DNA of 64,000 bases from positions 1,798,001 to 1,862,000 of the forward strand of contig NZ_CP107929.1 in the NCBI RefSeq assembly GCF_036017915.1. The letters run 5' to 3'. This document shows positions 34,499-59,833 of this stretch, piece after piece; the first letter of the stretch is position 1; every line of letters starts with the position of its first letter. A model generated the notes under the pieces. It was not told the origin of the DNA and did not search any database. It worked only from the letters and a program-made list of their open reading frames with translations. The DNA is from Micromonospora sp. NBC_00421. GTDB taxonomy: Bacteria > Actinomycetota > Actinomycetes > Mycobacteriales > Micromonosporaceae. The translations under genes and the position numbers were made by a program.

Positions 34499-35504
34499 GA
34501 GAGCCAAGAGTAACGCTACCGTCCCCGAAGCGGTAACAGCCGACCGGTTTACCGGCCTCGCCCTGGGCGCGCTGGGCGTGTGCGCCTTCAGCCTGTCGCT
34601 GCCGGCCACCCGGGTCGCGGTGCAGCAGCTCGACCCGTGGTTCGTCGCCTTCGGCCGGGCCGTCGGCGCGGCGCTGCTGGCCTGGGCCTACCTGCGGTGC
34701 ACCGGGGCGCCACGGCCCACCCGCGCCCAGCGGCGGCGACTGTCGATCGTCGCCCTCGGGGTGGTGGTCGGCTTCCCGCTGTTCACCTCGCTGGCGCTGC
34801 TCGACCAGACCGCCGCGCACGGGGCCGTCGTCATCACCGTGCTGCCGGCCGTGACCGCCGTGTTCGCGGTGCTCCGCAGCGGGGAGCGCCCACCGCCGAC
34901 GTTCTGGTTCGCCAGTGGCGGCGGGCTGCTGACGGTGCTGGTCTTCCTCGGCGTCGGCGGCGCGGTGCGCGGCGCGCCGGCCACGTCGGACCTGTTCCTG
35001 CTCGCCGCGGTCCTGCTCTGCGGCCTCGGGTACGCCGAAGGCGGCGCGGTCGCCCGCGAGCTGGGTGGCGCCCGGACGATCTGCTGGGCGCTGCTCTACG
35101 CGCTGCCGGTCACCGTGCCGGCCGCCCTCGCCGCTGCCGTGGCCCACCCGCCACGGGCGGACGCCGGGGCCTGGTCGGCCTACGGCTACCTGACCGTGGT
35201 CTCCATGTTCCTGGGCTTCTTCGCCTGGTACGCGGGACTGGCCCGGGGTGGGGTCGCCCGGGTGGGTCAGCTCCAGCTCGCCCAGCCGGTGCTCACCCTG
35301 CTCTGGTCGGCGTTGCTCCTCGCCGAGCATGTCCCGGTCACCGCGATCGGCGTGGCCCTGCTGGTGCTGGTGCTGGTCGTACTGATCCAGCGCACCCGCG
35401 ACCGGACCCTGGCGTCGGCCCCGCCCCGGCCCGTGCCCCCGTCCACGGGCAGCCCCGATCGGGGTTCCGGTCAGCCGGAGCCGGATCGTTGCGGGGCGGC
35501 CTGA
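34497..35504 (+). CDS. EamA family (DMT) transporter, 335 aa
   Basis: Ten hydrophobic segments in two EamA halves: GLALGALGVCAFSLSLPATR, FVAFGRAVGAALLAWAYLRC, ALLDQTAAHGAVVITVLPAV in the first, and PATSDLFLLAAVLLCGLGYA, GFFAWYAGLARGGVARVGQL, PVLTLLWSALLLAEH in the second. The tail is hydrophilic. It is a probable amino-acid or metabolite exporter controlled by the divergent MocR regulator, a known type of gene pair. The first codon lies on the MocR start; the next 15 residues are polar and may not be part of the protein if a later start is used. Its 3' end overlaps the convergent DUF817 gene by 34 bases. Confidence 0.93.
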   Translation: MRAKSNATVPEAVTADRFTGLALGALGVCAFSLSLPATRVAVQQLDPWFVAFGRAVGAALLAWAYLRCTGAPRPTRAQRRRLSIVALGVVVGFPLFTSLALLDQTAAHGAVVITVLPAVTAVFAVLRSGERPPPTFWFASGGGLLTVLVFLGVGGAVRGAPATSDLFLLAAVLLCGLGYAEGGAVARELGGARTICWALLYALPVTVPAALAAAVAHPPRADAGAWSAYGYLTVVSMFLGFFAWYAGLARGGVARVGQLQLAQPVLTLLWSALLLAEHVPVTAIGVALLVLVLVVLIQRTRDRTLASAPPRPVPPSTGSPDRGSGQPEPDRCGAA

Positions 35505-36980: not shown

Positions 36981-37167
36981 CGCCACATCCTGGCACGGCC
37001 CCCGGAGCGGGTCCGCGCGGGCGGCGTACGACAGGCGTGGGTGGGACGGCAGCGGCGGACCGCCCCTCGCGCAGTCCGGAGCCGCTCGGGTTGAACCGTC
37101 GGCGCCCCGGTTCGTAGAAGGGGGCCGGGACGGGAGGATGTCGGTGGGACCGAGGGTGTGGAAAGCG

Positions 37168-41180: not shown

Positions 41181-41458
41181 CGCCGCCCCACCTTCGTCTC
41201 CACCGGCACCTGCCGTCCGGTCCGCCCGCTCGTCACCACCGTCGGCGTCGGACGGTCGGCTTCCTACCGGTCTACCCGCTCCCCCGGGGGACGGCCCGAG
41301 GAGATCTTCCCGTCATCGGCGGCCGGTACTCTCGGCTGACCTCATGACGAGGATCATGGAAATCTGGTTCAGATTGATTTGAACGAACTCGCCGCTGATC
41401 CGCAATAGACGGTGAAGGCCGGTGACGCCCGGCCGTGGCGACTGAAGGGGGACACCCA

Positions 41459-44618: not shown

Positions 44619-44827
44619 GGGAGGTGTCCCTTCCGGCGTGGCGACATCGCTGTCGTGACGGACGCGCGATGCCTTCGGTTCACCGGGCTCGAATCGGATC
44701 GGATGATTTTGGTCCGGTCGTCATTGAACCGAGGGGGTGACCGGGCCGTCAACGTGGCTACCGCCGGGCCGGGCCGATTCGGCACCGGACGCCGGCGGCG
44801 ATGGCCGTGTCGTTGATCGGAGCTGTG

Positions 44828-46495: not shown

Positions 46496-46698
46496 GCCGG
46501 GCCACCCTCGTCGCCCCCGTCGACAGGTGGGTGGGGGCCCCGACCGCCACCGCCGTTCACCCCCGCCGTCGACCGGCCGGCCGACGGCCCGGGCGATCGT
46601 CCGATGAGCACGGTTATGCTCTCTTCCTAGGCGGGCTGGACGTCGAGACGACGGCGCGGCCGTACGGGTGCGACCCGTACGTCAGGGGGAGGCGTTCT

Positions 46699-47262
46699 GT
46701 GTCGGCGGTGCCCAACGAAGCGCCCGGGGTCACCGGCGACGCGGCGGTCGAGCGGGCCTCCCCCGAGGCCCTGATGCGCTGGATCCACGAGCAGTACCGG
46801 GGGCCGCTGCTGCGTTTCCTCACCCGGCTGGTCCTCGGCCGACAGGAGCTCGCCGAGGACCTGGTCCAGGAGACGTTCCTGCGTACCTGGCGGAACCTGG
46901 AGACGCTGGCGGAGGATCCGCGTCGGATCGCCCCGTGGCTCTACACGGTCGCCCGGCACGTGGCGATCGACGCGATGCGCGCCCGGCAGGCCCGCCCGCC
47001 CGAGGTGGCCATTCCCGACCTCAACCGGCTCGCCTCGGCCGACGACGAGATGGACCGGGTGGTCAGCACCCACACGGTCCGGCTGGCGCTGCAACAGATC
47101 AAGCCCGAGCACCGCGAGGTGCTCGTCGAGATGTACTACAAGGGCTCCTCGGTCGCCGAGGCCGCGCAGCGACTGGGAATTCCGGAGGGTACGGTAAAGT
47201 CGAGAACGTACTATGCGGTACGCGCGCTGCACGCAGCGATCGGCCCGACCGAGTCGCCCTGA
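46699..47262 (+). CDS. ECF sigma factor, SigK/SigL-like, 187 aa
   Basis: Region 2: WIHEQYRGPLLRFLTRLVLG, AEDLVQETFLRTWRNLE, then APWLYTVARHVAIDAMRAR. Region 4: IKPEHREVLVEMYYKGSSVAEAAQRL, split; core PEHREVLVEMYYKG and IPEGTVKSRTYYAVRAL. This is the pattern of ECF factors partnered with zinc-finger anti-sigma factors in actinomycetes. The GTG at 46699 follows GGGGGAGG at six bases. The longer frame upstream to 46492 has no ribosome site. The anti-sigma gene follows 100 bases downstream. Confidence 0.94.
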   Translation: MSAVPNEAPGVTGDAAVERASPEALMRWIHEQYRGPLLRFLTRLVLGRQELAEDLVQETFLRTWRNLETLAEDPRRIAPWLYTVARHVAIDAMRARQARPPEVAIPDLNRLASADDEMDRVVSTHTVRLALQQIKPEHREVLVEMYYKGSSVAEAAQRLGIPEGTVKSRTYYAVRALHAAIGPTESP

Positions 47263-47362
47263 TGACGCGACGTGGCGGTTTCCCGCTCGATCCCCCGTAC
47301 GGCTGCCGTCCCGGGGGTCGTCACACCGGCTACGGTGTGTCCGGGTCGAGAAGGAGGGCGTG

Positions 47363-48262
47363 ATGCGCACCGGCGGCGAACATCCCACCGCTGAGCACGC
47401 CGCCCTGGCCCTCTACCTGCTCGGCGCGCTCGACGACACCGACCGGGTCGCCTTCGAGGCGCACCTGGCCGGGTGTGGGGAGTGCCTGTCCGCTGCGGGC
47501 GAGATGGGCAGCGTGACAAGTGCCCTCGGCGGGCTGGACGCCACCGACTGGGACGAGCTCGTCGCCCTGACGCCGGAGTTCGCTGTCCCCGTGGAGTTCA
47601 CCCCACCTGCGAGCCGCGCACCTGCCTCCACACCCGCCCCGCCTGCCGATCCCCCGCCGCCGACGACCTCCGACGCGCCGGCGACCCCGGCCGTGTCGGC
47701 GACCCCGGCTGCGTCGGCGACCCCGGCCGCGCCGACGACCCCGGCCGCCGACACCGGGCGGCCGACGGGGAGCCGTCCTGGCGGAAGTCGTCCCGGCGGA
47801 AGCCGACCGGGGAGAGCGTCCGGAGCCGGTGGCACCCGGCCCGGCGACCCGGCGCGGCGTCGCCGGATGATGCTCTGGGGCGGGGTGGCCGCCGCGCTGG
47901 TGGCCGTCGTCCTGGCCGGTGGGGTCGCGGCCGTCAACGGGTTCGGTGGCCGCAGCGGGGTGGTGCTCACCGCGACCGGGGAAGCGCCGGCCCAGGGGGT
48001 GAGCCTCTCCGTCGCGATCACCACCGACGAGGGACGCGGCTCCACCATCCGGATCACCGCGACCGGCCTGCGCCAGGGCCTGCGGTACCGGCTGTTCGCG
48101 GTGACCCGCGACGGCACCACCCACGTGGTACGGGACTGGACCGCCTCGACCGGGCCGCAGGAGGTGACCGGCGAGCTGTCGCTGCCGGTCGCCGACCTGG
48201 CCTTCGTCACGGTGGGGCTGGTGGACGGCACCGCGATCGTCACCGCGCCGATCTCCCGCTGA
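47363..48262 (+). CDS. Anti-sigma factor with zinc-finger and anti-sigma-K domain, 299 aa
   Basis: Zinc finger HAALALYLLGALDDTDRV then HLAGCGECLSA (His and CxxC) at residues 10-45. A Pro/Ala/Thr linker of about 90 residues follows, then a membrane helix (MMLWGGVAAALVAVVLAGGVAA) and an outer domain of about 110 residues typical of RskA-type proteins. AAGGAGGG lies just before the ATG at 47363. It should hold the adjacent sigma factor and release it on an outside signal. It ends at a hairpin shared with the convergent T4SS-side gene. Confidence 0.93.
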   Translation: MRTGGEHPTAEHAALALYLLGALDDTDRVAFEAHLAGCGECLSAAGEMGSVTSALGGLDATDWDELVALTPEFAVPVEFTPPASRAPASTPAPPADPPPPTTSDAPATPAVSATPAASATPAAPTTPAADTGRPTGSRPGGSRPGGSRPGRASGAGGTRPGDPARRRRMMLWGGVAAALVAVVLAGGVAAVNGFGGRSGVVLTATGEAPAQGVSLSVAITTDEGRGSTIRITATGLRQGLRYRLFAVTRDGTTHVVRDWTASTGPQEVTGELSLPVADLAFVTVGLVDGTAIVTAPISR

Positions 48263-48263
48263 G

Positions 48264-48303
48264 CCGCCCGGACCCGACCTGTCAGGTTTCCGGGCCCGGG
48301 CGG
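48264..48303. terminator. Bidirectional hairpin terminator
   Basis: Stem CCGCCCGGACCCG with CGGGCCCGGGCGG (12 of 13 pair, one G-U) around a 14-base loop, between convergent genes. Confidence 0.65.
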
Positions 48304-48312
48304 TCTCCGTCG

Positions 48313-48729
48313 TCAGTACGGGTCGGTGTGCGGGACCTCCTTGGCCCGGTGTGCTCCCGCCTTGCACCCGGCGAACGGCCCGGCCGGGTTGCGCAGGCTG
48401 TTCAGCACCGGTTCCAGGTAGTCGCGGTGCCAGTTCGCCGGGCCGCACAGCCCGGCGTCCGGCCCGGTGAGCTCCTGCCAGGCCAGCCACAGGCCGTGCA
48501 ACTGCGCCACCGCCTCGGGGTGCTGCCACCACCGCCCACACCAGGGCGCGGTGGAGGAGGCCTCCCGGGCGTAGACCGGTACGAGCAGCAGCCGGACCCA
48601 GTCACTGAGCAGCTCCAGTTCCTCGGTGTACTCGTCGTCGCGCAGGTAGAGGATGAACGGCGAGGTCGGCGGCTTGTCGACCGGTGGCCCGTCGTCGGCG
48701 GGGCGTTGCTCCTGCGGCGTCACCGTCAT
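48313..48729 (-). CDS. DUF4913 protein, 138 aa
   Basis: Diagnostic stretch: WCGRWWQHPEAVAQLHGLW, AWQELTGPDAGLCGPANWHR and YLEPVLNSLRNPAGPFAGC, typical of DUF4913. These small proteins are repeatedly found next to actinobacterial conjugation and integrative-element genes, but their role is unknown. The start is ATG at 48729. It lies 55 bases downstream of the SLT-like gene on the same strand, so the two form a small unit facing away from the T4SS operon. Confidence 0.88.
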   Translation of the reverse strand: MTVTPQEQRPADDGPPVDKPPTSPFILYLRDDEYTEELELLSDWVRLLLVPVYAREASSTAPWCGRWWQHPEAVAQLHGLWLAWQELTGPDAGLCGPANWHRDYLEPVLNSLRNPAGPFAGCKAGAHRAKEVPHTDPY

Positions 48730-48784
48730 GGAAACTCCTCATCGGTCTGCCGGCCGGATCCGGTCCGCCGGTCGGGTCGGGCTG

Positions 48785-49585
48785 TCAGTCGGTGGGCGTC
48801 GCGGAGGGCGTCGCGGTCGGCGGGAACGAGGGCGGTGGGCCGCCGAGCCCCTGGTACTTAGCGAACAGTGACCGCACCTGCGCCAGGTAGAGCTGCGCCG
48901 CGTTGCTCGAGGGGACGCCACCGGCCCGGCGTACCTCGTCGATGCCGACGGCGTACGCGGCGAGCGTCAGGTCGAGCACCTCGCCGATCGCCTGGCCGTC
49001 GTCGAGCAGGGCCTGGGCCTGTCCGGCCAGGGCACAGACGTGTTTGGCCTGCGCCGCGATCGAGTCCTCCTCGTCGGCCGCGTCGGTGTCACCGTCGTCG
49101 TCGCTGTCCTCGCCGTACTTCGTGAACACCTCGGGCGGTAGCTGGGAGATGCCCTTCTCCCCGTTCGCGCCCACCTTCGCCGGATCCCACCCGGAGGCCA
49201 CCTCGATCTGCGCGGCGATCACCACGGGCCCGATCTGGGTGCAGGTCTTCCCGGCGTCCTCGATGCTGTCGGCCAGGCCCTCGGGCACCTGGTCGGGGTC
49301 GAGGGTGCCCTTGCCGTCGCCCTGGGCGGCGGCGAGCGAGTCGTCGGCGGCGCTGACCGGGTCGGCCGAACCACCGCCGCCCCCGAAGAGCAGGATCAAC
49401 GCGACAAGCGGGGCCAGCAGCACGCCCAGCGCGCCGATCACGAAGACGGCGGCGGCGCCGACGACCCCGGCCACCGGCGTGGCCAGGCAGCTCAGCCCGG
49501 CCGCGACGGCCGCCCCGATCAGGGCCGCGCTGCTCCGGTTGGACCCTTGCGTCGGCTCCGCGCCGTCGTTGTCGGACGCTGCCAT
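48785..49585 (-). CDS. Membrane-anchored SLT-like (conjugation-type) protein with altered active site, 266 aa
   Basis: One long hydrophobic segment (about residues 22-68: LIGAAVAAGLSCLATPVAGV ... LVALILLFGGGG) may cross the membrane twice. The lysozyme-like domain is at about 110-250: TQIGPVVIAAQIEVASGWDP, split; then NGEKGISQLPPEVFTKYG, an acidic DSDDDGDTDAADEED loop and LTLAAYAVGIDEVRRAGG. The usual catalytic Glu before SGxxP is Ala130 here, with a Glu two residues earlier, so activity is uncertain. It probably opens or shapes the wall for the T4SS encoded divergently. Confidence 0.85.
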   Translation of the reverse strand: MAASDNDGAEPTQGSNRSSAALIGAAVAAGLSCLATPVAGVVGAAAVFVIGALGVLLAPLVALILLFGGGGGSADPVSAADDSLAAAQGDGKGTLDPDQVPEGLADSIEDAGKTCTQIGPVVIAAQIEVASGWDPAKVGANGEKGISQLPPEVFTKYGEDSDDDGDTDAADEEDSIAAQAKHVCALAGQAQALLDDGQAIGEVLDLTLAAYAVGIDEVRRAGGVPSSNAAQLYLAQVRSLFAKYQGLGGPPPSFPPTATPSATPTD

Positions 49586-49766
49586 CGTCGCCTCCCAGGC
49601 TGGTCGTCATCGCGGTGGAAAAAGTTCGTGCTCGGCGTGAACCGGGGGGCGGGAGCCCTCGTAGTGGCGTCCGTCGACCGCCCGGCCCGCCGTACTGACG
49701 GGGCCGGACCCGGGGTGGTTCAACCGGGAGCCGACGAATGGAGCGACATTTCCGAGGAGGTGGTGC

Positions 49767-50291
49767 ATGGGGCCCGCGACGATCGCCGACCCGGTAGCAC
49801 GCAGGCCACCGGGGCCGTCGTCCCCCCGGACCGGTCCCGGGGTGGGCACGCCGCCCCGCCGGTCGCTGTCCGAGACGGGCCTGGGCTGGATCGCGGCGCA
49901 CGGCGGTGCCGGTGCGACGACGCTCACCCGGCTCTTCGGCGGCACCGACCTGGGCTGTCGGTGGCCGGATGCGGCACGGGCGGAACCGGCCACGGTGATG
50001 CTTGTCGGCCGGACCGACGCCGAGGGGATGCGGGCGGTGTCCCGGGCCCTCAACGCCCTGCGGGAGGGGCGTCACCCGCCCGGGATGCGGCTGGTCGGGC
50101 TGGTGCTGCTGGCCGACGCCCCGGGCCGGTTGCCGCCGGCGCTGGCCCGCCGGATCCGGGTGCTGCGGTCGGTCGCGCCGGTGCACCGGGTGCCCTGGAT
50201 ACCGGCCTGGCGGCTGGGACAGCAGCCCGCGCGGCTGCCCAAGGCCCTGGAGCGGCTGCGGGCGGCGGCCGGGGACGGGAGGAAATCGTGA
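49767..50291 (+). CDS. Degenerate P-loop-like protein of T4SS operon (DUF6668-like), 174 aa
   Basis: A Pro/Arg-rich start is followed by IAAHGGAGATTLTRLFGG (about residues 42-59), which looks like the ParA/MinD deviant Walker A (KGGxGKT) with the lysines missing. MRLVGLVLLADAPGRLPPAL and VPWIPAWRLGQQPARLP follow. This pattern is seen in DUF6668-type proteins of actinobacterial conjugative elements (recalled, not searched). It is first in the T4SS operon, and its stop overlaps the next start (GTGA). Binding of nucleotide is doubtful. Confidence 0.75.
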   Translation: MGPATIADPVARRPPGPSSPRTGPGVGTPPRRSLSETGLGWIAAHGGAGATTLTRLFGGTDLGCRWPDAARAEPATVMLVGRTDAEGMRAVSRALNALREGRHPPGMRLVGLVLLADAPGRLPPALARRIRVLRSVAPVHRVPWIPAWRLGQQPARLPKALERLRAAAGDGRKS

Positions 50292-50617
50292 CCCGCGCGT
50301 CCGAGATCGTCGCCCACCTGCTGGCGCTCGGTCCGGGGGCGGGGCCCTCCCCGTTGCCGACCTTCAGACCACCACCGCCGTACAACCCGGCGGGCGGGGC
50401 GGCGGACGACCTGCTGAACCTGCTCGCCTGGGGGGTCAGTGCGGCCGGTGTCGCCGGGCTGCTCATTCTCGGCATCTCGATGGCCATCCAACTCAACCGG
50501 GGCGTGCCCGGGGAGATGAGCGACCACTTCCGTGGGGCGGTGTTCGTCGCGATGGGCTGTGTGCTCGGCGCGACCGCCGGACCACTCGTCATGTTCTTCG
50601 GTGACCTCGGACTCTGA
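50288..50617 (+). CDS. Small two-helix membrane protein, VirB2/TrbC-like candidate, 109 aa
   Basis: Two helices (LNLLAWGVSAAGVAGLLILG and FVAMGCVLGATAGPLVMFF) with a short basic loop between them, the shape of VirB2/TrbC pilins. The N-terminus is Pro-rich (PLPTFRPPPPYNP). GGGAGGAAATC precedes the GTG, which overlaps the previous stop. It is similar in layout to the next gene product, so there are two pilin-like paralogues. Assembly into a pilus is inference. Confidence 0.78.
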   Translation: MTRASEIVAHLLALGPGAGPSPLPTFRPPPPYNPAGGAADDLLNLLAWGVSAAGVAGLLILGISMAIQLNRGVPGEMSDHFRGAVFVAMGCVLGATAGPLVMFFGDLGL

Positions 50618-50733
50618 GCCGGATCGCCGCCGGCCGGACAGCGCACCCCGCACTGCCGGCCAGTTCCACCCCGTCACCGCCGGAGCGTCGCCGACGCCTC
50701 CGGTGATGTCCCCTGCCCGAAGGAGCTGTTCCG

Positions 50734-51096
50734 ATGTCGTTCACGAGCCTGTCCCAGTACGCCGGGGCCTACCTGGTCGCCCGCTTCCCGGTGGCCCTCG
50801 ACCCGACACCCGCCGGGGGTGGGGGGATCAACCCCACCCCCAACGCGCCGGGGCAGCTGAACACCCTGGTGAACAAGCTGCTGGGCCTGATCGCCTGGGC
50901 CGGCACCGCCGCCGGGGTGGCCGGGGTGCTGATCACCGGCACGATGATGGCGATCTCCGTGAAGCGCGGGGAGAGTTCCGAGCACATGTCCCGGCTCGGC
51001 CTGGTGCTCGGTGGTTGCATCCTGGTCGCCGTCGCGGGTCCGTTGGCGAACTTCTTCCTCGGCGGTGCCGGCACCACCGAGGGCCAGCCGCAGTGA
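50734..51096 (+). CDS. Second small two-helix membrane protein, VirB2/TrbC-like candidate, 120 aa
   Basis: As for its upstream paralogue: LLGLIAWAGTAAGVAGVLIT, then a charged loop KRGESSEHMSR, then LGLVLGGCILVAVAGPLANFF. The two share the order helix-loop-helix and motifs (G)VAGxL and AGPL(A/V). Its stop overlaps the next start (GTGA). AAGGAGCTG precedes the ATG at 50734. Confidence 0.8.
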   Translation: MSFTSLSQYAGAYLVARFPVALDPTPAGGGGINPTPNAPGQLNTLVNKLLGLIAWAGTAAGVAGVLITGTMMAISVKRGESSEHMSRLGLVLGGCILVAVAGPLANFFLGGAGTTEGQPQ

Positions 51097-51803
51097 TCGG
51101 CGGGCGACGCCGGTCCCCGTCGGACGCGCCGTTCTGGGCCGAGCGCGGTTGGATCCTCTCCGTCGCGTTCCTCGCCGGAATGACGCTGCTGGCGGCGGGC
51201 GCCTGGGCGTCCGGCGCGACCCGGGAGACGCCTGTCGACCCGGTGGCCCGCACCGCTGTCGCGCAGGTGGCGCAGTGCCCACCCCGGCCGGTGGTGGCGG
51301 CGGGGCCGGCCGTGCCGCCGGAGGACGTGACGTGGCGGACCCTCGACGGTGGGGACCGGGTGCCGGTCTCCGCCACGCAGGGCCCGTCGCGCACCGCCGA
51401 CGGGGTGCTGGGCTGCTTCGCGCACACCCCGATCGGTGCGGTGCTCGCGGCGCACGCAGTACCCACCCAGTTGGCCGGGTCGGCCTGGCGGGCGGTGGCA
51501 GAACGGCAGGTGTTGCCGGGGCCGGGCCGGGACGTGCTGGTGGCCCGACTGGAGGCCGCCGCCGGTGTGGTCACCAGTCGTGGCGGCGGCAGCTACGCCG
51601 GCTTCGCCCTCGTCCGGTACGCGGCCGACGCGGCCCAGGTGCAGTTGCTTGTCAAGACCGGTGCCGGCGGTTACGTGGCGACCCTGGTCGAGGTGCGCTG
51701 GGACGCCGGGGACTGGAAATTGGTGCCGTCCCGGGCCGGGGTGGTGCACGCCTCGATCGGCGCGGTCACCGGCAGCGCCGGCTACACCCTCTGGAGGAAG
51801 TAG
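51093..51803 (+). CDS. Single-helix membrane protein of T4SS operon, VirB8/TcpC-like candidate, 236 aa
   Basis: One N-terminal helix (WILSVAFLAGMTLLAAGAWA) is followed by an outer domain. Motifs include CFAHTPIGAVLAAHAVPTQL, SAWRAVAERQVLPGPGRDVL and GYAGFALVRY-like repeats (SYAGFALVRY). This is the arrangement of VirB8/TcpC-type core proteins, and PIGAV/AHA patterns recur in actinobacterial conjugation loci. No family assignment is certain. It ends directly before the VirB6-like gene. Confidence 0.8.
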   Translation: MIGGRRRSPSDAPFWAERGWILSVAFLAGMTLLAAGAWASGATRETPVDPVARTAVAQVAQCPPRPVVAAGPAVPPEDVTWRTLDGGDRVPVSATQGPSRTADGVLGCFAHTPIGAVLAAHAVPTQLAGSAWRAVAERQVLPGPGRDVLVARLEAAAGVVTSRGGGSYAGFALVRYAADAAQVQLLVKTGAGGYVATLVEVRWDAGDWKLVPSRAGVVHASIGAVTGSAGYTLWRK

Positions 51804-53000
51804 ATGGGCGGGTGTTCGCCTCCCAGTCCGCTCGACATCATCACCGGATTCTTCTCGTTCCTCGGTGACCCGATCGGCACCCTGGTCCGGATGATCGCCA
51901 ACCTGATGCTGGCCGCCGCGATCTCGATCTTCGCCGAGCTGAGTGCCTCGGTGCCGACGCTGGGCACCACGGCCGAGGGCGGCCCGGACGACGTGCCCAG
52001 CCTGATCAGCGACCAGATCGAGTGGGTCGTCACCTATCTCGCGATCGGGTCGGTGCTCTTCGCCGGGGCCCGGATGGCGATGGAACGCAAGGGCACGGCC
52101 GGCCGGACGGCGTTGCAGGGCTTCCTGCGGGTGATCCTGGTCGCCGGGGCCGGTTCGTGGGTGGTGGGCCGGGCGGCCAGCCTCTCCGACGGCTTCTCCG
52201 ACCATCTGCTCAAGTCCGCGGCGATGGAGGTGGTGATGGGGGTGCCGTGTGTGGACAACGGCTCCTCGATCGAGTCGTTCCTGCTGCTGGTGCTGGCCTT
52301 CCTGCTGCTGATCGCCGCCATCGTGCACGTGCTGATGCTCTATCTGCGGCTGGGCGTGATGACCATCATGCTCGGCACCCTGCCGCTGGCCGCCGCCGCG
52401 TCCATGACGAACTGGGGGGCCGGCTGGTGGCGCAAGCACATCGGCTGGACGGTGGCGTGGCTGCTCTACAAGCCCGCCGTCGGCCTGATCATGTTCTCCG
52501 GCGCGGAGATGCTCGCGGTCGGCAGCCGTACCCAGAACTCCTCGCACATCCGGATCGCCGGCATCGGCGTGCTGCTGTTGTCGGCGGTCGCTCTGCCGGC
52601 GCTGCTCAAGATCGTGGTGCCGGCCACGGCGGCGCTGGGCAACGGCGACCCGACCGGGACCGCCATCTCGGCTGCGGGCGGCATGGTCGCCTCCGGGGCG
52701 AAGCGGGTCGCCGGGTCCGCGCTGTCCCAGGGCGGCGGTGGTGGCGGCTCCCCGTCCGGAGCACGCGGAGCCCAGGGTCGCCGGGGCGACACCGGTGGGC
52801 AGGGCCCCGCGGGCAGCGAGGGGCGGACCGGCCGTACCGGTGGCACCGGTGGTGGCAGCGCGGCCGCCGCGAGTTCCGCGGCTCGACTCGCCGGCCCGGT
52901 CGGGGCGGCGATCGAGGGGGCGCAGCGGGCGGCCCGGACCGGCCGGAACATGGCGGCCGGCACGGTGTCGGGCGCGGACGGCGACGCCGGCCACAACTGA
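51804..53000 (+). CDS. VirB6/TrbL-like polytopic membrane protein with collagen-like tail, 398 aa
   Basis: Six or seven helices (for example LVRMIANLMLAAAISIFAEL, ESFLLLVLAFLLLIAAIVHV, HVLMLYLRLGVMTIMLGTLP) and a conserved-looking WGAGWWRKHIGWTVAWLLYK loop. A Gly/Ala tail follows, holding eleven consecutive Gly-X-Y triplets (GARGAQGRRGDTGGQGPAGS, continuing to GGTGGG, nt 52758-52856). The core fits VirB6/TrbL, the inner-membrane channel of T4SSs. Collagen-like tails are unusual there. The ATG directly follows the previous stop, with CTGGAGGAAG as ribosome site. Confidence 0.85.
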   Translation: MGGCSPPSPLDIITGFFSFLGDPIGTLVRMIANLMLAAAISIFAELSASVPTLGTTAEGGPDDVPSLISDQIEWVVTYLAIGSVLFAGARMAMERKGTAGRTALQGFLRVILVAGAGSWVVGRAASLSDGFSDHLLKSAAMEVVMGVPCVDNGSSIESFLLLVLAFLLLIAAIVHVLMLYLRLGVMTIMLGTLPLAAAASMTNWGAGWWRKHIGWTVAWLLYKPAVGLIMFSGAEMLAVGSRTQNSSHIRIAGIGVLLLSAVALPALLKIVVPATAALGNGDPTGTAISAAGGMVASGAKRVAGSALSQGGGGGGSPSGARGAQGRRGDTGGQGPAGSEGRTGRTGGTGGGSAAAASSAARLAGPVGAAIEGAQRAARTGRNMAAGTVSGADGDAGHN

Positions 53001-53066
53001 CAGCGCGGGCCGCCGGCCGGCCGGGAGAGACCCCGGCCGGCGGCCCGGTGAGACGAGGGAGAGGCA

Positions 53067-54560
53067 ATGTCGACGGAAGCCATCATCGAACCGACGTACG
53101 GCAACTGGCGTCGACCCCGCCGGGCCGGGCTCGGCCCGCTCGGCCTGGTCGGCACGGTCGGGGTGTTCGGCGGGCTGGTGCTGGTGCTGCTGGCCTCGCT
53201 GGCGTCGCTGCAGGCGGCGCTGGTGGTCGGCGTGCCGCTGGTGGTGGCCCTGCTGCCGATGGCCGTACGCACCCAGGACGGCCGCAACCTCTACCAGCTG
53301 CTGACGCTGCGGATCGGCTGGTCCCGCCGGGTGTCGCGGCGGGAGCACCTGTACGTCTCGGGGCCGCTGTCGGCCCGCCCGGGTGGCCGGTTCCCGCCGC
53401 CCGGCCTGCTCAGCGGGGTGCTCGCCCGGGAGGGCCGGGACGCCTACGACAGACCGTTCGGGGTGCTGCACCACAAGAGCCGCAACCTCTACACGATCGT
53501 GCTGCGCTGTGAGCCCGACGGTGGTTCGCTCGTCGACCCGGAGCAGGTCGACACCTGGGTGTCGCTGTGGGGTGAGTGGCTGTCCCGGCTCGCCCACGAA
53601 CCGGGGCTGCGCGGGGCCTCGGTGGTGGTGGAGACGGCCCCGGACCCGGGCACCCGGCTCGCCGCCGAGGTGCTGCCCCGGTTGGACGCCGCCGCTCCCG
53701 CCGCGGCCCGTGCCGTGCTGGAGGAGGTGGTCGACGACTACCCGTCGGCGTCGTCGGAGATGAACTCGTACATCACCCTCACCTACGCCCCGGTGGGTGG
53801 GCCACGGCGCGATCCGGAGGACGTGGTCACCGACCTGGCCATCCGGGTGCCCAGCCTGCTGACCGGGTTGATCGGTGCGGGCGGGGGCGTCGCCGAGCCG
53901 CTGTCGGCCGAGCAGATCGCCGAGGTGGTCCGGGTGGCGTACGACCCGGCCTGCGCCGCCGAGGTGCTCAGCGTCCGGGCCGAGCACGGGGAGACCGGGC
54001 TGGAGTGGGCCGACTGCGGGCCGGTCGCCGCGGTCGAGTCGGTGGACGCCTACCAGCACGACTCGGGGGTCTCCCGGACCTGGCTGCTCACCCTGGCCCC
54101 CCGGGGCACGGTGCGCTCCAGTGTGCTGCGCACCATGCTCGACGCCTCCGCCGGGACCCGCCGCAAACGGGTGGCGCTGCTCTACCGGCCGATCGACCCG
54201 GCGACCTCGGCCCGGATCGTCGAGGCCGACCGCCGGACGGCGCAGTTCATGGCCACCTCCGGGCGGGGCATGGTGCAGGCGCGGGCGGCCGCCGAGGTAC
54301 GCGCCGCCGAGCAGGCCGCCGCCGAGGAGGCCACCGGCGCCGGGCTGGTGGAGTTCTCGCTGATGCTCACCGTCACGGTCGACGACCGGTCCCAGCTCGA
54401 CGACGCGTCGGTGCTGGTCCGCAACATGACCGGAGCCACCCGGATCGCGATGCGGCCGGCCCACCGGATGCAGGCGGCGGCGTTCAGCTGCACCCTGCCG
54501 ACCGGGATCCTTCCGTGGGAGCAGACCGTGCTGCCACACGAACTCCAGGAGGCGATGTGA
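53067..54560 (+). CDS. SCO6880-family protein (PrgI/VirB4 N-terminal-like), 497 aa
   Basis: Two N-terminal helices (GLVGTVGVFGGLVLVLLASL and AALVVGVPLVVALLPMAV) are followed by RTQDGRNLYQLLTLRIGWSR. This is the PrgI-like part that in other Gram-positive systems precedes VirB4. The rest (about residues 80-497) resembles the N-terminal, non-ATPase half of VirB4. GAGAGGC precedes the ATG. The ATPase domain is encoded by the next gene, overlapping by four bases, so VirB4 is split into two chains. Confidence 0.88.
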   Translation: MSTEAIIEPTYGNWRRPRRAGLGPLGLVGTVGVFGGLVLVLLASLASLQAALVVGVPLVVALLPMAVRTQDGRNLYQLLTLRIGWSRRVSRREHLYVSGPLSARPGGRFPPPGLLSGVLAREGRDAYDRPFGVLHHKSRNLYTIVLRCEPDGGSLVDPEQVDTWVSLWGEWLSRLAHEPGLRGASVVVETAPDPGTRLAAEVLPRLDAAAPAAARAVLEEVVDDYPSASSEMNSYITLTYAPVGGPRRDPEDVVTDLAIRVPSLLTGLIGAGGGVAEPLSAEQIAEVVRVAYDPACAAEVLSVRAEHGETGLEWADCGPVAAVESVDAYQHDSGVSRTWLLTLAPRGTVRSSVLRTMLDASAGTRRKRVALLYRPIDPATSARIVEADRRTAQFMATSGRGMVQARAAAEVRAAEQAAAEEATGAGLVEFSLMLTVTVDDRSQLDDASVLVRNMTGATRIAMRPAHRMQAAAFSCTLPTGILPWEQTVLPHELQEAM

Positions 54561-56293
54561 GCAGCGCACCGGTGGTCCGCGCGGACGGGCTCGGGGCGGG
54601 CTGGCCGACCGGGACCTCGGGGGCGCACACCGCGCTGACCGGGCTGGTCGGCGATCCGGACGACGGGGCTCCCACCCCACCGAAGAAAGCCCGCCCGCCG
54701 CGTCCCCGCCGTGAGCTGCCCCCCTCGGCCCGGGGCTGGGATGGGCCCGGCGGTGGCCGGGTCGGCTATCTCGACGCGCCGACCATGTGGCGCGCCACCA
54801 CCGTGCAGGCGTGCGGGCTGTGGCCGTTCTCGGCCGGTTCGGGCGCGCCGATGTCCGGGGTGCCGCTCGGTCAGCACCTGTTCACCGGCGCCACGGTCTG
54901 CGGTGATCCGATCTCCTGGTTCACCCGGGCCCGGTACATCTCCAACCCGTCGCTGTTCATGCTGGGCATGCCCGGTCTGGGCAAGTCGACCCTGATCAAC
55001 CGGATGGCGGTGGGCCTGGCCGCCACCGGTGTGGTGCCGTTGGTGCTGGGCGACCTCAAGCCGGACTACGCCGACACGGTCCGCGCCCTCGGTGGGCAGG
55101 TGATCCCGATCGGGCGCGGGGTCGGCGGGATCAACGTGCTGGACCCGGGGGCGATGGGCCTGGCTGCCGAACGCATCGGCGGCCGGGCCGGCCGGGCGCT
55201 GGCCGCAGAGACGCACGGCCGGGTGCTGAACATGGTGGCGGCGTTGCTGACCATCGTGCGGGGCCGGGCTCTGGACGACCACGAGCAGTCGGTGCTCTCT
55301 GCCTGCCTGCGGCACCTGCGGGAACGTACCCCGGAGCACCGGGCCCCGCTGCTGCCGGACCTGCTCCGGGTGCTGGAGGAGGGGCCCGACCGGGTCCGCG
55401 CGGTGACCCTGGACCGGGGCCAGGAGAGCCGCTACCGGGACGCGGTGGACCCGCTGCACCGCTCCCTGCTGGGCATCCTCGACGGTGCGTTGGGGGACAC
55501 CTTCGGCGCGACCACCTCCACCCGGATCGACCCGGACGCCCCCGCCGTCTGCATCGACATCTCCCGGATCGGGGAGTCCGACACCCAGCTCACCGCGGCG
55601 GCGATGCTGGCCGCCTGGTCCGAGGGCCTGGGCACGGTCGCCGCCTCGCACGCCATGGCCGACGCCGGCCTGGCCCCGCGCCGCTGGTTCTTCACCATCC
55701 TCGACGAGCTGTGGCGGCCGCTGCGGGCGGCCTCCGGCATCGTCGACCGGATCGACGCGCTGACCCGGCTCAACCGGTCGCTCGGCCTCGGCGACGCCAA
55801 GATCACCCATACCCTGAAGGACGCCGAGGCGTTGGGTTCCGACGCCGACCGGGCCAAGGCGCGCGGTTTCGTGGAGCGGGCCGGGATCGTGGCCTGCGCC
55901 GGTCTGCCGGCGGCGGAGATGACCGACCTGGGCCGGGTGATCGGCCTGTCCAAACGCGAGATCGAGCTGGTCTCCTCCTGGTCGTCGCCGCCGGGCTGGG
56001 CGAGCACCGGCAGCAACGAGGAGCCACCCGGGCGGGGCCGGTTCCTGATCAAGGTGGGTGGCCGGCCCGGCATCCCGATCCGGGTCTCCATCACCGACAC
56101 CGAACGCCGGCTGCACGACACCAACCAGCGCTGGGTGCAGAACGGGTACGCAGCCCAGCAGGCCGCCGAGCGGGCGGCGGCCCGGCAGGCGGCCTTCGAG
56201 GCCGAGGCGGAGCTGGGAAACCTGGCCACCCGGCCGGAGCTGGCCCACCTCGCCGACGAAGCCGTTGCGGGCGAGCGGGGGTGGCGGGCATGA
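54557..56293 (+). CDS. VirB4-type conjugation ATPase, 578 aa
   Basis: Walker A GMPGLGKST at about residue 140, Walker B-like WFFTILDELW at about residue 378, and the typical conjugation-ATPase surroundings: FMLGMPGLGKSTLINRMAVG, VVPLVLGDLKPDYADTVRAL, INVLDPG and LGDAKITHTLKDAEAL. The GTG at 54557 follows AGGAGG and overlaps the previous stop. It should energise assembly and transport. The C-terminal 40 residues are Ala/Glu/Arg-rich and may form a coiled coil. Its stop overlaps the VirD4 start (ATGA). Confidence 0.94.
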   Translation: MSSAPVVRADGLGAGWPTGTSGAHTALTGLVGDPDDGAPTPPKKARPPRPRRELPPSARGWDGPGGGRVGYLDAPTMWRATTVQACGLWPFSAGSGAPMSGVPLGQHLFTGATVCGDPISWFTRARYISNPSLFMLGMPGLGKSTLINRMAVGLAATGVVPLVLGDLKPDYADTVRALGGQVIPIGRGVGGINVLDPGAMGLAAERIGGRAGRALAAETHGRVLNMVAALLTIVRGRALDDHEQSVLSACLRHLRERTPEHRAPLLPDLLRVLEEGPDRVRAVTLDRGQESRYRDAVDPLHRSLLGILDGALGDTFGATTSTRIDPDAPAVCIDISRIGESDTQLTAAAMLAAWSEGLGTVAASHAMADAGLAPRRWFFTILDELWRPLRAASGIVDRIDALTRLNRSLGLGDAKITHTLKDAEALGSDADRAKARGFVERAGIVACAGLPAAEMTDLGRVIGLSKREIELVSSWSSPPGWASTGSNEEPPGRGRFLIKVGGRPGIPIRVSITDTERRLHDTNQRWVQNGYAAQQAAERAAARQAAFEAEAELGNLATRPELAHLADEAVAGERGWRA

Positions 56294-58050
56294 GCCGGAC
56301 GTCGTCGGGCGCCCCCCGGGGGGCGGACCTGTTCTTCTGGGCGTTCTGCCTGGTGGTCCTCGCCAACGCGGCGCTGTTCACGGTCGCCTGGCTGGGCGGC
56401 ACCCTGGGCGCCGGGGTGACCGGGCACGGTTGGCAGCCGCCGCCGTTCACGCTCGGGGCCTACCTCACGCTGATCTCCGGGAACACCGGCACGCTCTGGC
56501 CCGGCGCGTCGCCGTACGCGGTCTACGCCGGGATGCTGGCGGTGTCGCTGCTGGTCGTCGTGCCGGCGGTGCTCGTCGGGCGTCGGCTGCTCGACCTGCG
56601 CGGGCGGGGCGTCGGGCTGGCCCGGGTGCGTGACCTGGCCCCGCTGACCCCCGTCGGGATCGCCGCCCGCGCCCGGGAGCTGCGTCCCTCGCTGGCCGGG
56701 GTACGGCAGCTCGCCCCGGACGAGACCGGCAACCTGCTCGGCGACCTCGCGCCGAACGGTCCCGAGCTGCGCTCCTCCTTCGAGGACGTGGAGTTGGACC
56801 TGATGGCCCCCCGGGCCGGCAAGTCCACCGGGATCGCCGTGCCCCGGGTGCTGCGGGCCCGGGGAGCGGTGCTGCTCACCTCCAACAAGTCCGACGTGTA
56901 CGCGGTGACCCGGGCCGAACGGGACCGCGTCGGTACGGTGTGGACCTTCGACCCGCAGGGCATCGCCCACGTTCCCCGCCAGATGTGGTGGGACATCCTC
57001 GCCGACTGCGCGACCATCGAGGGGGCCCGCCGGTTGGCCGGGCACTTCGTGGCGTCGGTCAACGACGACACCGCCAAGAAGGACTTCTGGATCTCGGCGG
57101 CGCAGAACACCCTGACCGCGCTCTTCCTGGCCGCCGCCCGGGGGCGGGCACCCGTCGCCGAACTGCTCGGCTGGCTGGCCGACCCGGCCGACCGTACCCC
57201 GATCGACCTGCTGCGCGATGCCGGTCTGCCGGCGATGGCCGAGCAGTTGCAGGGCACCGTACGCGGGGCGGTGGAGACCCGCGACGGCATCTACGAGACG
57301 GCCCGGCAGTGCGTGGCGTGCCTGCTGGACCCGGAGATCCTGGCCTGGGTTTCCCCGGACCCGTACCTGCCGCAGTTCCGCCCGGACCGGCACGTGCTCG
57401 GTCGGGACACCCTCTACCTGCTCTCCAAGGACGGTGGTGGCTCCGCCGCCGGGGTGATCGCCGGGCTCGCCGACGCGACCCTGCGGGCGGGAGTGGTCGC
57501 CGCCGAGCGGATGGGCGGCCGGCTCGACCCGCCGATGACGGCGGTGCTGGACGAGGCGGCGAACGTGTGCCGGATCTCCGACCTGCCCGACCTCTACTCC
57601 CACCTCGGGTCCCGGGGGATCAACGTGGTCACCCTGTTGCAGAGCTACCGGCAGGGGTCCCGGGTCTGGGGCGAGGCCGGGATGGACGCGCTGTGGGGCG
57701 CGGCCACCATCAAGCTGCTCGGCGCGGGGCTGGACGACGCCGACTTCGTGGAGAAGGTCTCCAAGCTGGTCGGTCAGCACGACGTGAGCACGGTCAGCGT
57801 CTCCCGCAGCCGGGACGGCTCGTCCCGGTCCACCTCGTACCGGCAGGAGCACGTGCTGCCGCCGGACCGGATCCGGGCCCTGCCGAAGGGAACGGCGTTG
57901 CTGCTCGCCACCGGCATCCGCCCGGCCGTGATCACGCTGCGGCCCTGGTACAAGGAGCCGGACGCGGGTCGAATCTCCGCCCAGGCCCGGCAGGAGGTCG
58001 CGGCGATCACCGAGCGGGCCGCCGGCAAGGCCACCACGACGCCGTGGTAG
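56290..58050 (+). CDS. VirD4/TraG-type coupling ATPase, 586 aa
   Basis: Two N-terminal helices (LFFWAFCLVVLANAALFTVA and VYAGMLAVSLLVVVPAVLVG) precede a TraG/TraD-type ATPase. Walker A is APRAGKST at about residue 175 and Walker B is AVLDEAANVC at about residue 420. VVTLLQSYRQGSRVWGE and STSYRQEHVLPPDRIRALPK are typical of type IV coupling proteins, which select the substrate (DNA or protein) for the channel. Its start overlaps the VirB4-type gene stop. This is the clearest marker of a T4SS here. Confidence 0.95.
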   Translation: MSRTSSGAPRGADLFFWAFCLVVLANAALFTVAWLGGTLGAGVTGHGWQPPPFTLGAYLTLISGNTGTLWPGASPYAVYAGMLAVSLLVVVPAVLVGRRLLDLRGRGVGLARVRDLAPLTPVGIAARARELRPSLAGVRQLAPDETGNLLGDLAPNGPELRSSFEDVELDLMAPRAGKSTGIAVPRVLRARGAVLLTSNKSDVYAVTRAERDRVGTVWTFDPQGIAHVPRQMWWDILADCATIEGARRLAGHFVASVNDDTAKKDFWISAAQNTLTALFLAAARGRAPVAELLGWLADPADRTPIDLLRDAGLPAMAEQLQGTVRGAVETRDGIYETARQCVACLLDPEILAWVSPDPYLPQFRPDRHVLGRDTLYLLSKDGGGSAAGVIAGLADATLRAGVVAAERMGGRLDPPMTAVLDEAANVCRISDLPDLYSHLGSRGINVVTLLQSYRQGSRVWGEAGMDALWGAATIKLLGAGLDDADFVEKVSKLVGQHDVSTVSVSRSRDGSSRSTSYRQEHVLPPDRIRALPKGTALLLATGIRPAVITLRPWYKEPDAGRISAQARQEVAAITERAAGKATTTPW

Positions 58051-58147
58051 GCCGGCCCGGCGAGAAAGTCGGAGCACCGGCTGAACCGGCCGCCGGGACC
58101 GGTCGTAAAGGGCGTGTCAACCGTTGGCCGAGCATCGAGGAGCCCAG

Positions 58148-59089
58148 GTGTCTTCACCCCATCAGCCGCCGCCGGGCGGGACCGGAGATCCCACCGGCAA
58201 TGGCTACAACTACCCGGTCCAGCAGCCCTACACCCCGAGCAACTACAGCCAGAACAGCTACGAGAGCGGCTACACCCCGAGCAACTACAGTCAGGACGCA
58301 CCGAGCACCACGTCCCTGCCGGCGGGCTACGGCCAGTACAGCGCGGCCGACTACCAGGCCGAGGTGGTCCAGCAGTACGGTACGTCGAACTCGTCCGGGC
58401 GCAGCAGCCCCGGCCCGGGTGACTCGATCAGCGTCGAGTGGAACGACCAGGAGACCAGCCAGCACTCCCTGGACGGCCAGAACCGGGTGATGACCTGGGC
58501 GCAGCAGGCCGGCCGGTGGGTCTACGAGAACGACGAGAAGATCGTCAACTTCGTGTCGTTGGTGGCCTCGCCCGGGGTGCAGGGCGCCGCCGGGCTCGGG
58601 GGCAGCGCGGTCGCGAACAGCGTCGGGCTGGCCCTGGCCGCCGGGCCGGGCGCGTACGTGGTGGGCAAGGAAGTGGTCAACTCGCTGCGCAACGGTCGGC
58701 AGGGGGACCTGGTACGGGCCGCGTACGGCGCGGTGGCTGCGGCGGGTGCGATCACCTGGGGTGTCGGCTACGCACCGGGCCAGAGCACGACGGCCGGCAA
58801 CGCGGGGGCCGTCGTGCACGGCGTGGGCTCCGGGTTCATGGTCACCCGGGCTCCCCGGGAACAGCCGAGACGATCGCGACGGGACCCGGAGTCCGGAGGA
58901 CGCGCCAACCGGGACGTCGCCGCCTCGGCCAGCTCACACCGCCGATCCGACGGGCAGTCCCGCCACCACAGCTCCCGCACCTCCGGCCACGACGCAGGTT
59001 CCGCCCGCGAGCCGGCGGTCAGGCGCGGCGCGTACGACCGGAACGCCGAGGGGCCTCGGAGAGGCGGGGGCGGGGGTGGGAACGGCTAG
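58148..59089 (+). CDS. Repeat-bearing membrane protein at the end of the T4SS operon, 313 aa
   Basis: The N-terminal part is rich in Tyr, Gln, Asn, Ser and Pro and carries two near-identical YTPSNYSQ units (nt 58229-58252 and 58271-58294; 23 of 24 bases match). A central hydrophobic stretch (NFVSLVASPGVQGAAGLGGS, AVANSVGLALAAGPGAYVVG, LVRAAYGAVAAAGAITWGVG) may be membrane-embedded. The tail is highly basic and Ser/Arg/His-rich. GAGGAG precedes the GTG at 58148. I do not recognise a family. The low-complexity, charged ends could suit a channel substrate or scaffold. Confidence 0.75.
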   Translation: MSSPHQPPPGGTGDPTGNGYNYPVQQPYTPSNYSQNSYESGYTPSNYSQDAPSTTSLPAGYGQYSAADYQAEVVQQYGTSNSSGRSSPGPGDSISVEWNDQETSQHSLDGQNRVMTWAQQAGRWVYENDEKIVNFVSLVASPGVQGAAGLGGSAVANSVGLALAAGPGAYVVGKEVVNSLRNGRQGDLVRAAYGAVAAAGAITWGVGYAPGQSTTAGNAGAVVHGVGSGFMVTRAPREQPRRSRRDPESGGRANRDVAASASSHRRSDGQSRHHSSRTSGHDAGSAREPAVRRGAYDRNAEGPRRGGGGGGNG

Positions 59090-59120
59090 GGGCGCACCCT
59101 GCCGTAACCCGTTCGGCAGC

Positions 59121-59161
59121 GGGGTGCCGCCGCGTCGCGTCCGTGGACGCGGCGGCACCCC
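59121..59161. terminator. Bidirectional hairpin terminator
   Basis: 16-bp perfect stem GGGGTGCCGCCGCGTC and complement with a 9-base loop, between the convergent T4SS operon and polysaccharide deacetylase gene. Confidence 0.88.
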
Positions 59162-59230
59162 GTACCCCTGCGGCGGGTTGCCGGGTCACCCGGCGGGCCG
59201 CAACGCCGCCCGCCGGGACGGGCTGGTCGG

Positions 59231-59833
59231 TCAGACCCGCCCGTGGGGCAGGGTGAACCGCCAGCGCCGCGCCCGTAGCGCCGGCACGGCCCGGTCGACC
59301 GCGGTGACTGTCTGGCGGCGGTCCCCGCCGCCGTCGTGCATCAGCACCACCGCGCCGGGGGTGACCCCGTCGAGCAGCCGACGGACGAGTTCGTCGGTGC
59401 CCGGCGGCTCCCAGTCCCCGACGGCCAGCCGCCAGCCGAGCGGCTGCATGCCCAGCGCGGCGGCCACGGCGGGACTCGCCCCCCAGGCCCCGTAGGGCGC
59501 GCGGAAGTACCGGATTCTGGCTTCCGGCACGGCCCGCCGGATGGCCTCGTTGGTCTCCCGCAGATCCGCCTCGATCCGATCGGGTGACCAGGAGGTCATG
59601 TCGTCGTGCCGCATGCCGTGGTTGCCCAGGCGGTGACCGTCGGCCACGATCCGTCGTACCACCTCGGGGTGCGCGTCGACGTGCTCGCCCCACAGGAAGA
59701 ACACGGCGGCGATCCGGTGCCGGCGCAGGACGGTGAGCAGCCGCAGCGTGTCGGTGGGGTTCGGGCCGTCGTCGAAGGTGAGGCTGACCGTCCGCCCGCC
59801 GCCCCGGGCCGTGTCGACGATGTCGGCGCTCAC
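59231..59833 (-). CDS. Polysaccharide deacetylase (CE4/NodB) family protein, 200 aa
   Basis: NodB motifs in order: LTFDDGPNP (Asp21, Asp22), GNHGMRHDD (His72 and His76, the metal ligands), YFRAPYG and the C-terminal VVLMHDGG. The family removes N- or O-acetyl groups from chitin, peptidoglycan or xylan. It starts with GTG at 59833. There is no signal peptide, unlike most CE4 members, so it may act inside or leave by another route. It is 8 bases downstream of the xylanase gene, same strand, so acetyl-xylan breakdown products are a plausible substrate. Confidence 0.92.
   Translation of the reverse strand: MSADIVDTARGGGRTVSLTFDDGPNPTDTLRLLTVLRRHRIAAVFFLWGEHVDAHPEVVRRIVADGHRLGNHGMRHDDMTSWSPDRIEADLRETNEAIRRAVPEARIRYFRAPYGAWGASPAVAAALGMQPLGWRLAVGDWEPPGTDELVRRLLDGVTPGAVVLMHDGGGDRRQTVTAVDRAVPALRARRWRFTLPHGRV

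Follow-up and report, generated by a model that had tools for sequence, protein, structure and literature searches.

The window analysed here, a stretch of 64,000 bases corresponding to positions 1,798,001-1,862,000 of the single-contig, 7,231,838-base genome of Micromonospora sp. NBC_00421, carries an operon (49,767-58,050) encoding a type IV secretion system (T4SS), and we found that this operon forms the core of a module of ~22 kb (~37,092-59,089 of the window) that also encodes an extracytoplasmic function (ECF) sigma factor and its anti-sigma factor. Judging from sequence features, this chromosomal and regulated T4SS, for which no MobF or MobP relaxase was detected, is probably a dedicated protein exporter that would recognize its substrates through C-terminal signals, a reading to which we give a probability of roughly 0.6. 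The absence of any detected DNA-handling partner, the presence of its own gene switch and a changing set of tail-tagged proteins together make protein export probable. Gene starts were refined using overlaps (GTGA/ATGA) and frame GC content, giving the following genes for the operon and for the pair that diverges from it:

48,313-48,729, minus strand: DUF4913 protein (Pfam)
48,785-49,585, minus strand: SLT-like cell-wall hydrolase, VirB1-like role (22.3 bits, cut-off 21.3)
49,767-50,291, plus strand: DUF6668-like protein (E 1.8e-4, below cut-off)
50,288-50,617, plus strand: small membrane protein, pilin-like, the first of two (from its sequence; conserved)
50,734-51,096, plus strand: TrbC/VirB2-like pilin (E 0.0027, below the Pfam cut-off; position and conservation fit)
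51,093-51,803, plus strand: VirB8-like protein (one transmembrane helix and an NTF2-like fold)
51,804-53,000, plus strand: VirB6/TrbL-like polytopic membrane protein (TrbL_4 E 0.74, sub-threshold; position and conservation fit)
53,067-54,560, plus strand: SCO6880 family protein, VirB4 N-terminal half by position (NCBIfam, E 6.8e-146)
54,557-56,293, plus strand: VirB4 C-terminal ATPase half, VirB4C (intact Walker A/B)
56,290-58,050, plus strand: VirD4 coupling ATPase (TraG-D_C, E 2.6e-32)

As an earlier note on this DNA had recognized, the core of a T4SS is thus present, with VirD4, a VirB4 that is split over two genes and the divergent SLT and DUF4913 genes (48,313-49,585). In the ATPase half of VirB4, the motifs GMPGLGKST and LDELW were invariant in 15/15 aligned rows. 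The set of VirB8, VirB6 and pilin proteins that had also been claimed stood in part: a structure model of the VirB8-like protein (predicted local distance difference test, pLDDT, 80) displays a transmembrane helix and an NTF2-like domain and lies near TraM of pIP501, a match that ties with many NTF2 folds and thus does not prove a VirB8 identity, and the matches of the VirB6 and TrbC candidates were sub-threshold. The homologue of the divergent SLT protein in a sister clade carries a GH19 domain. Sequence searches of the PDB gave no match at 0.01 with the VirB4C profile and two designed proteins only (E 0.68 and 0.83) with the SCO6880 profile, and PHROGs and PADLOC gave one weak match each (E 0.005 and 0.008).

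The operon shares a promoter motif with its neighbors: TGAACC-N16-CGT was found upstream of six transcription units of the module, and a variant with an N15 spacer at its left edge:

37,092-37,116, plus strand: TGAACC-N15-CGTA, before the gene of a 645-aa protein; left module edge
41,347-41,371, minus strand: motif with N16
44,658-44,682, minus strand: motif with N16
44,725-44,749, plus strand: motif with N16, before the GH64, sigma and anti-sigma genes
49,638-49,662, plus strand: motif of the T4SS operon
49,698-49,722, minus strand: motif of the SLT and DUF4913 genes
58,082-58,106, plus strand: motif of orfX

Genome-wide, 96 matches with an N16 or N17 spacer were counted, versus nine for the reversed pattern; 69 have N16, and six of these fall in the 22-kb module, all six upstream of genes. 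When the two motif-defining sites are excluded, the Poisson probability of at least four sites in 22 kb is 6e-5. An N17 match at 35,502, inside a gene of the opposite strand, was taken as chance. Among relatives, we surveyed the 800 bases before the DUF6668 gene at 90 loci, 78 of which were readable there: the motif lies ahead of the T4SS operon in 55/64 main-lineage loci, in 0/3 Arthrobacter-type loci and in 0/11 loci of an ECF-less Streptomyces sister group that forms one clade and so counts as a single evolutionary comparison, and the reversed pattern was found at 0/78 loci. Orthologues of the ECF sigma factor (at least 64% identity; next best 53%) occur in 23 genomes of the genus, all of them among the 24 that bear the orthologous T4SS; in the remaining T4SS genome (G082), the system lies on a contig of 25 kb. 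The sigma factor of the window would then read the TGAACC-N16-CGT motif. The earlier note had let the unit start at 48,313, with the anti-sigma gene as its outer boundary; this boundary has to be abandoned, since the anti-sigma gene lies inside a module that begins at ~37,092 and the ECF orthologue accompanies the T4SS in 23 of 24 genomes and appears at that level in no other.

Orphan genes are numerous beside the T4SS in relatives, and the motif also precedes unrelated ones among them. We collected called, non-core genes of at least 150 aa with TGAACC-N16/17-CGT between -300 and +60 of their start (n=92) and, as controls, 278 further genes from these loci, window included; 11 duplicate Micromonospora, the 11 ECF-less and five Arthrobacter-type loci were dropped from the tail counts, as were genes cut by the end of a stretch or shorter than 150 aa. 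Signal peptides were called by a crude hydrophobicity rule, tail charge was taken over the last 20 residues and a family counted as basic at a mean of at least 2.5. The 61/92 motif genes without a signal peptide fall into 32 families (phmmer), and 25 of these have a basic tail versus 24/72 control families (P 3.6e-5); within these proteins, charge is also higher in the tail than in the interior (P 1.5e-6). Of the motif genes, 31 have a signal peptide, an NlpC/P60 hydrolase among them; they form nine families with no significant bias (3/9 vs 11/48 controls). In a hold-out set of 13 new Streptomyces loci, two of which were dropped as identical (L225 to L101 and L231 to L136), 10/13 proteins had a basic tail vs 6/28 (one-sided P 0.001). 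Over the last 60 residues, pooled, the hydrophobic fraction was 0.117 vs 0.267, and the final residue was R or K in 48/74 pooled orphans, with R final in 56/224 controls. None of 11 sampled orphans without signal peptide, orfX included, had a Pfam match above the curated cut-off. Such C-terminal tails resemble VirB/D4 translocation signals and may be the export signal, and at the level of sequence these co-regulated orphans give protein export by this T4SS module its first positive evidence, the earlier note having had none on substrates. The orphans might instead be cytoplasmic or nucleic-acid-binding proteins that merely depend on the same sigma factor: arginine-rich tails also bind nucleic acid, and those of the orphans are only a putative export signal. 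We consider this distinctly unlikely, considering that the orphans are very diverse (32 families), adjoin the secretion machine and vary between relatives, and that the tail bias is missing among motif-bearing proteins with a signal peptide; this possibility overlaps with the two rival explanations discussed below, so that the odds need not add up to one.

A few further protein families were seen near such loci. One cargo-like family has a conserved HEVG(D/G)HE stretch and is possibly metal-binding (L046:2847-3650, L137:11621-12508). Glycosyltransferases of the GT4-conflict type (PF20706), with linkers rich in Pro and Gly and with basic ends (L129:16435-18120, L116:16993-18537, L234:17084-18397) adjoin T4SSs of ECF-less and other lineages and are perhaps cargo with the same tails. 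In several lineages, zeta-toxin proteins are encoded close to SCO6880-type T4SS loci (L129:18399-19349, L238:3681-4685 and, as annotated, L260).

The candidate cargo of the window itself is encoded downstream of VirD4:

58,148-59,089, plus strand: orfX, candidate exported protein with an S/Y/Q-rich N-part and an Arg/His-rich, variable C-part

OrfX has no Pfam match above cut-off (best SYNE1, E 0.06), and a search that scored the 7,997 candidates with the most words in common with it found 13 homologues besides itself, of which those with a named organism are Micromonospora hypothetical proteins. Its C-part contains variable HTSR-type repeats. The protein changes fast next to a constrained machine: it is 65-71% identical to the copies of its nearest relatives, compared to 95-96% for VirD4, and ratios of nonsynonymous to synonymous substitution rates (dN/dS) were 0.34-0.47 for orfX, 0.04-0.07 for SCO6880 and 0.12-0.14 for VirD4.

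Several observations weigh against a regulated protein exporter. In 9/64 main-lineage loci the motif was not found before DUF6668, and 6/64 have no ECF match in the stretch covered; the ECF-less group, besides being a single clade, was picked out from the joint absence of motif and sigma factor, and the Streptomyces ECF gene is 34-46% identical to that of the window and may therefore encode a different sigma factor. OrfX and the anti-sigma gene evolve at similar rates; the last 20 residues of orfX have a charge of +1, with the basic stretch further in, which makes it a weaker example than many relatives, and a motif-bearing 719-aa protein of the module has a tail charge of 0. Tail thresholds were chosen after inspection of the data, gene calls among the controls include spurious open reading frames and 11/13 hold-out proteins have homologues among the families analysed before. 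Outside the module, 59 of the 63 N16 sites of the genome were taken with their flanks (15 rows, 14 distinct sites, lie before a called gene) and no further clear tailed cargo was found at these 59; two motif-preceded genes there end with a charge of at least 3, L156 (442 aa), which has a hydrophobic stretch before its C-terminal end, and L175 (163 aa). A genome-wide regulon was rejected, no clear tailed orphan being found at the 59 outside N16 sites covered. Finally, giant Streptomyces plasmids carry the system, and among four that were inspected three are typed mobilizable/MOBP and one non-mobilizable.

These plasmids are also an argument for a different function, namely that the machine transfers DNA in trans with a relaxase encoded elsewhere, its chromosomal copies being stranded parts of large plasmids. 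Ten plasmid records, all from Streptomyces and of 285 kb to 1 Mb, contain SCO6880 at 69-77% identity, and VirD4 retains its DNA-transfer domains. The four inspected plasmids are linear (310-510 kb), with the module in H1 and the T4SS in H2, H3 and H5, and the genes annotated up to 11 kb from the T4SS include no relaxase on any of them, in PLSDB gene tables that are incomplete. Such plasmids offer a route by which the module may have changed address, and they also keep DNA transfer alive as an explanation. Against it, PF08751 (MobF) and PF03432 (MobP) had no match in the whole 7.2-Mb genome, other relaxase families not having been searched; as a control, each profile matched in 1/14 genomes. 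The Arthrobacter-type relaxase (PF03432, E 3.8e-19, with MobC adjoining), used as a query on all loci longer than 9 kb, matched only in L147, L151, L152, L237 and L238, the last two on 73-kb and 126-kb contigs, and in none of the loci at 67-100% identity, each with a flank of up to ~10 kb; several relatives at ~42% identity retain a relaxase. A dedicated sigma/anti-sigma pair and cargo-like genes are not hallmarks of conjugation either, and we regard DNA transfer as unlikely. On the plasmid side, a linear Streptomyces plasmid of 469 kb encodes, after VirD4, a protein of ~2,107 aa that is annotated as hypothetical (L259:16541-22864). One of the relaxase-bearing contigs, L152 (WNZI01000009.1), is labelled Vibrio cholerae 35D and falls inside Arthrobacter on the tree described below; it is probably a contaminant in that assembly.

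Export of protein by a former conjugation machine agrees with the remaining DNA-processing survey. PF00589 gave 15 matches in the genome, the nearest phage-type integrase being at 2,228,424, ~370 kb away, and the 64-kb window contains no tRNA. The second TraG-D_C match of the genome (537 kb) shares its reading frame with a match to FtsK_SpoIIIE, and an FtsK-type gene ~79 kb to the left was judged unrelated. The earlier note had seen no relaxase, integrase or tRNA that belongs to the locus, and this has held up in the wider search for relaxase (MobF and MobP), FtsK-type and integrase genes, none of which could be assigned to the module. A still-mobile integrative and conjugative element (ICE) was rejected: there is no relaxase of the two families searched, no adjacent integrase and no attachment site or tRNA in the window, and the empty site described below holds a gene remnant. 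SCO6880-type T4SSs are known from actinobacterial conjugative plasmids and ICEs. The system shares its ancestry with conjugation machines and, by the tests run, is not an ICE; both alternatives of the earlier note, protein export and domestication from a conjugative element, fit these findings.

The module is wider than 48,313-59,089; promoter motif, synteny and an empty site agree on its borders. Beside the T4SS, the SLT/DUF4913 pair and orfX, it contains the following genes, with a hairpin at the right border:

37,138-39,075, plus strand: 645-aa protein with an N-terminal hydrophobic signal and a LysM-like N-terminus (LysM is our own reading, without a Pfam match)
39,021-41,180, minus strand: conserved 719-aa protein, no signal peptide by the crude rule (57-81% identity in nine relatives)
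41,435-42,940, plus strand: subtilase (S8) with a LysM-like N-terminus and a C-terminal hydrophobic segment
43,023-44,618, minus strand: SLT transglycosylase with a ricin-B lectin
44,801-46,495, plus strand: GH64 beta-1,3-glucanase with CBM6
46,492-47,262, plus strand: ECF sigma factor
47,213-48,262, plus strand: anti-sigma factor (zf-HC2)
59,090-59,235, plus strand: strong hairpin, right border (G036 breakpoint at 59,099)

The 719-aa protein had no match in a Pfam scan, and the fold of its structure model (mean pLDDT 57) was not used. The subtilase and the 645-aa protein, with their common LysM-like N-terminus, recall a type VII mycosin; no EccC or WXG100 protein of a type VII (ESX) system was found among the module proteins scanned with Pfam.

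Ten Micromonospora genomes, the source included, were compared over 52-60 kb each, and all ten keep the order LysM protein, 719-aa protein, LysM-subtilase, SLT-lectin, (GH64), ECF, anti-sigma, T4SS and SLT/DUF4913, some small genes being missed by the gene caller. The 645-aa gene is present in 10/10 and GH64 in 4/10, and the SLT/DUF4913 pair is upstream and inverted in the group of the window and downstream of VirD4 in the other. The outer flanks fall into at least five different sets within the stretch compared: the module keeps its synteny at several different locations and is no active mobile unit. In a second Micromonospora clade and in Phytohabitans, a histidine kinase/response-regulator pair flanks the module (L045:488-2351, L143:2238-4108 and relatives), and a second ECF sigma gene does so in several loci of this type. 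The relative G036, which has no SCO6880 match, can be aligned to the source genome as far as 37,352 (92.8%) and again starting at 59,099 (94.6%), with 81 bases between the aligned flanks and 21.7 kb missing. The promoter region falls in the aligned part and is still present in G036, as is what is left of the 645-aa gene, a decayed start; we take this scar to indicate the loss of an older module rather than an untouched site. GC content is flat across the module, and a recent foreign island was rejected on this ground. The strong terminators proposed as bounds were confirmed only as strong hairpins (48,258-48,318, z -3.43; 59,090-59,235, z -3.15), neither of which has a U tract, and a consensus terminator scan found none. 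The 'xylan' genes to the right are outside the module.

SCO6880 orthologues (67-100% identity) were found in 24/151 genomes of the genus, 52 of which have any SCO6880-type match, in 42/392 Streptomyces genomes (E <=1e-190, 69-78% identity) and, counting any SCO6880-type match at 1e-30, in 47/394 genomes of an even sample of the class. Streptomyces griseoflavus and S. pilosus are among the Streptomyces carriers of the ECF lineage. Scanning genomes of named organisms yielded 70 loci, from Micromonospora, Streptomyces, Pseudosporangium, Jidongwangia, Phytohabitans, one further actinobacterium and the Arthrobacter type (five loci). In a quick, midpoint-rooted tree of 98 sequences, which is silent on the direction of transfer, Micromonosporaceae orthologues form one clade (SH-aLRT 98) beside Streptomyces, and the Arthrobacter-type and more distant Micromonospora relatives fall outside this part. 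As to whether the locus is core or mobile, a question raised by the earlier note, its presence is sporadic, yet its genes stay together wherever the module is located, and the empty site bears a scar, which points to loss; the refuting conditions set by that note thus had a mixed outcome. This distribution bears on another possible function, a developmental envelope apparatus that would serve aerial growth or chromosome segregation rather than effector export, as described for Streptomyces coelicolor cmdABCDEF: without this chromosomal cluster, aerial hyphae and segregation are abnormal, whereas plasmid transfer is not affected (PMC2782261). The co-regulated wall hydrolases would suit such remodelling, but sporadic presence and scarred loss would not, and SCO6878 and SCO6881 null mutants are mentioned there, as the authors' unpublished data, to lack such a phenotype (PMC2782261); we find this explanation quite improbable.

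If the module does export proteins, an envelope signal would end the hold of the zf-HC2 anti-sigma factor on the ECF sigma factor, and the sigma factor would read the TGAACC-N16-CGT promoters and jointly switch on channel, wall cutters and cargo genes. The channel would consist of the split VirB4, VirB6, VirB8, pilins and VirD4, with the two SLT enzymes as cell-wall cutters; the cargo, largely hydrophilic and without signal peptide, would be recruited by VirD4 through its basic C-terminus, as in VirB/D4 effector systems, and might be delivered to the milieu, other bacteria, fungi or plants. We see an even chance that this extends to a whole family of relaxase-free, ECF-sigma-controlled T4SSs in Micromonospora, Streptomyces and their kin that exports at least 25 protein families without detectable mutual relationship, a fast-changing repertoire with a common hydrophilic, basic C-terminal signal, and that would be a dedicated effector T4SS class in monoderm actinobacteria. 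No description of such a module or T4SS class was found among the best matches in the open-licence PubMed Central (PMC) literature, nor any mention of DUF4913 in the part searched, where SCO6880 appears in one paper. The locus offers a testable system in culturable soil bacteria, with regulator, promoter, machine, candidate cargo and candidate signal, making the long-standing question of effector export by Gram-positive T4SSs testable; if the reading is right, a contact- or milieu-directed export channel is added to genera best known for antibiotics.

In the VirB/D4 system of Agrobacterium and the X-T4SS of Xanthomonadaceae, VirD4 recruits proteins via C-terminal signals, and X-T4SS effectors come with immunity partners; none like these were recognized in the module. 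Unlike the system of the window, both are Gram-negative, with an outer-membrane core. Among Gram-positive systems, 89K of Streptococcus suis is reportedly a pathogenicity island that is also transferred horizontally by its own T4SS. Secretion of the subtilisin-like SspA-1 was reported for this VirB/D4 system, apparently as the first such case; the relevant passages of a 2025 review, where effector translocation by Gram-positive T4SSs is called largely open, name this one substrate and mention no dedicated regulon (PMC12857230). For the genus itself, the M. lupini genome paper lists one VirB4-like gene (PMC4182475). S. coelicolor cmdABCDEF (SCO4126-4131) and SCO6871-6884, known to us by description only, are likewise chromosomal, SCO6880-type and without effect on plasmid transfer; CmdB is VirB4-like, cmdB, C and D resemble SCO6878, SCO6880 and SCO6881, and the description of cmdABCDEF, as far as it is available to us, mentions no sigma factor or cargo (PMC2782261). 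A close likeness in gene order, DUF6668-pilin-VirB8-VirB6-SCO6880-VirB4C-VirD4-DUF4913, is with Arthrobacter-type L147, L151 and L152 and Micromonospora L237 and L238, at ~40-44% identity in SCO6880, though L238 showed no DUF4913. Within the stretch covered, each of the five has a relaxase of the MobP type, whereas the module of the window has none and, unlike them, possesses a sigma/anti-sigma pair, wall hydrolases and cargo-like genes.

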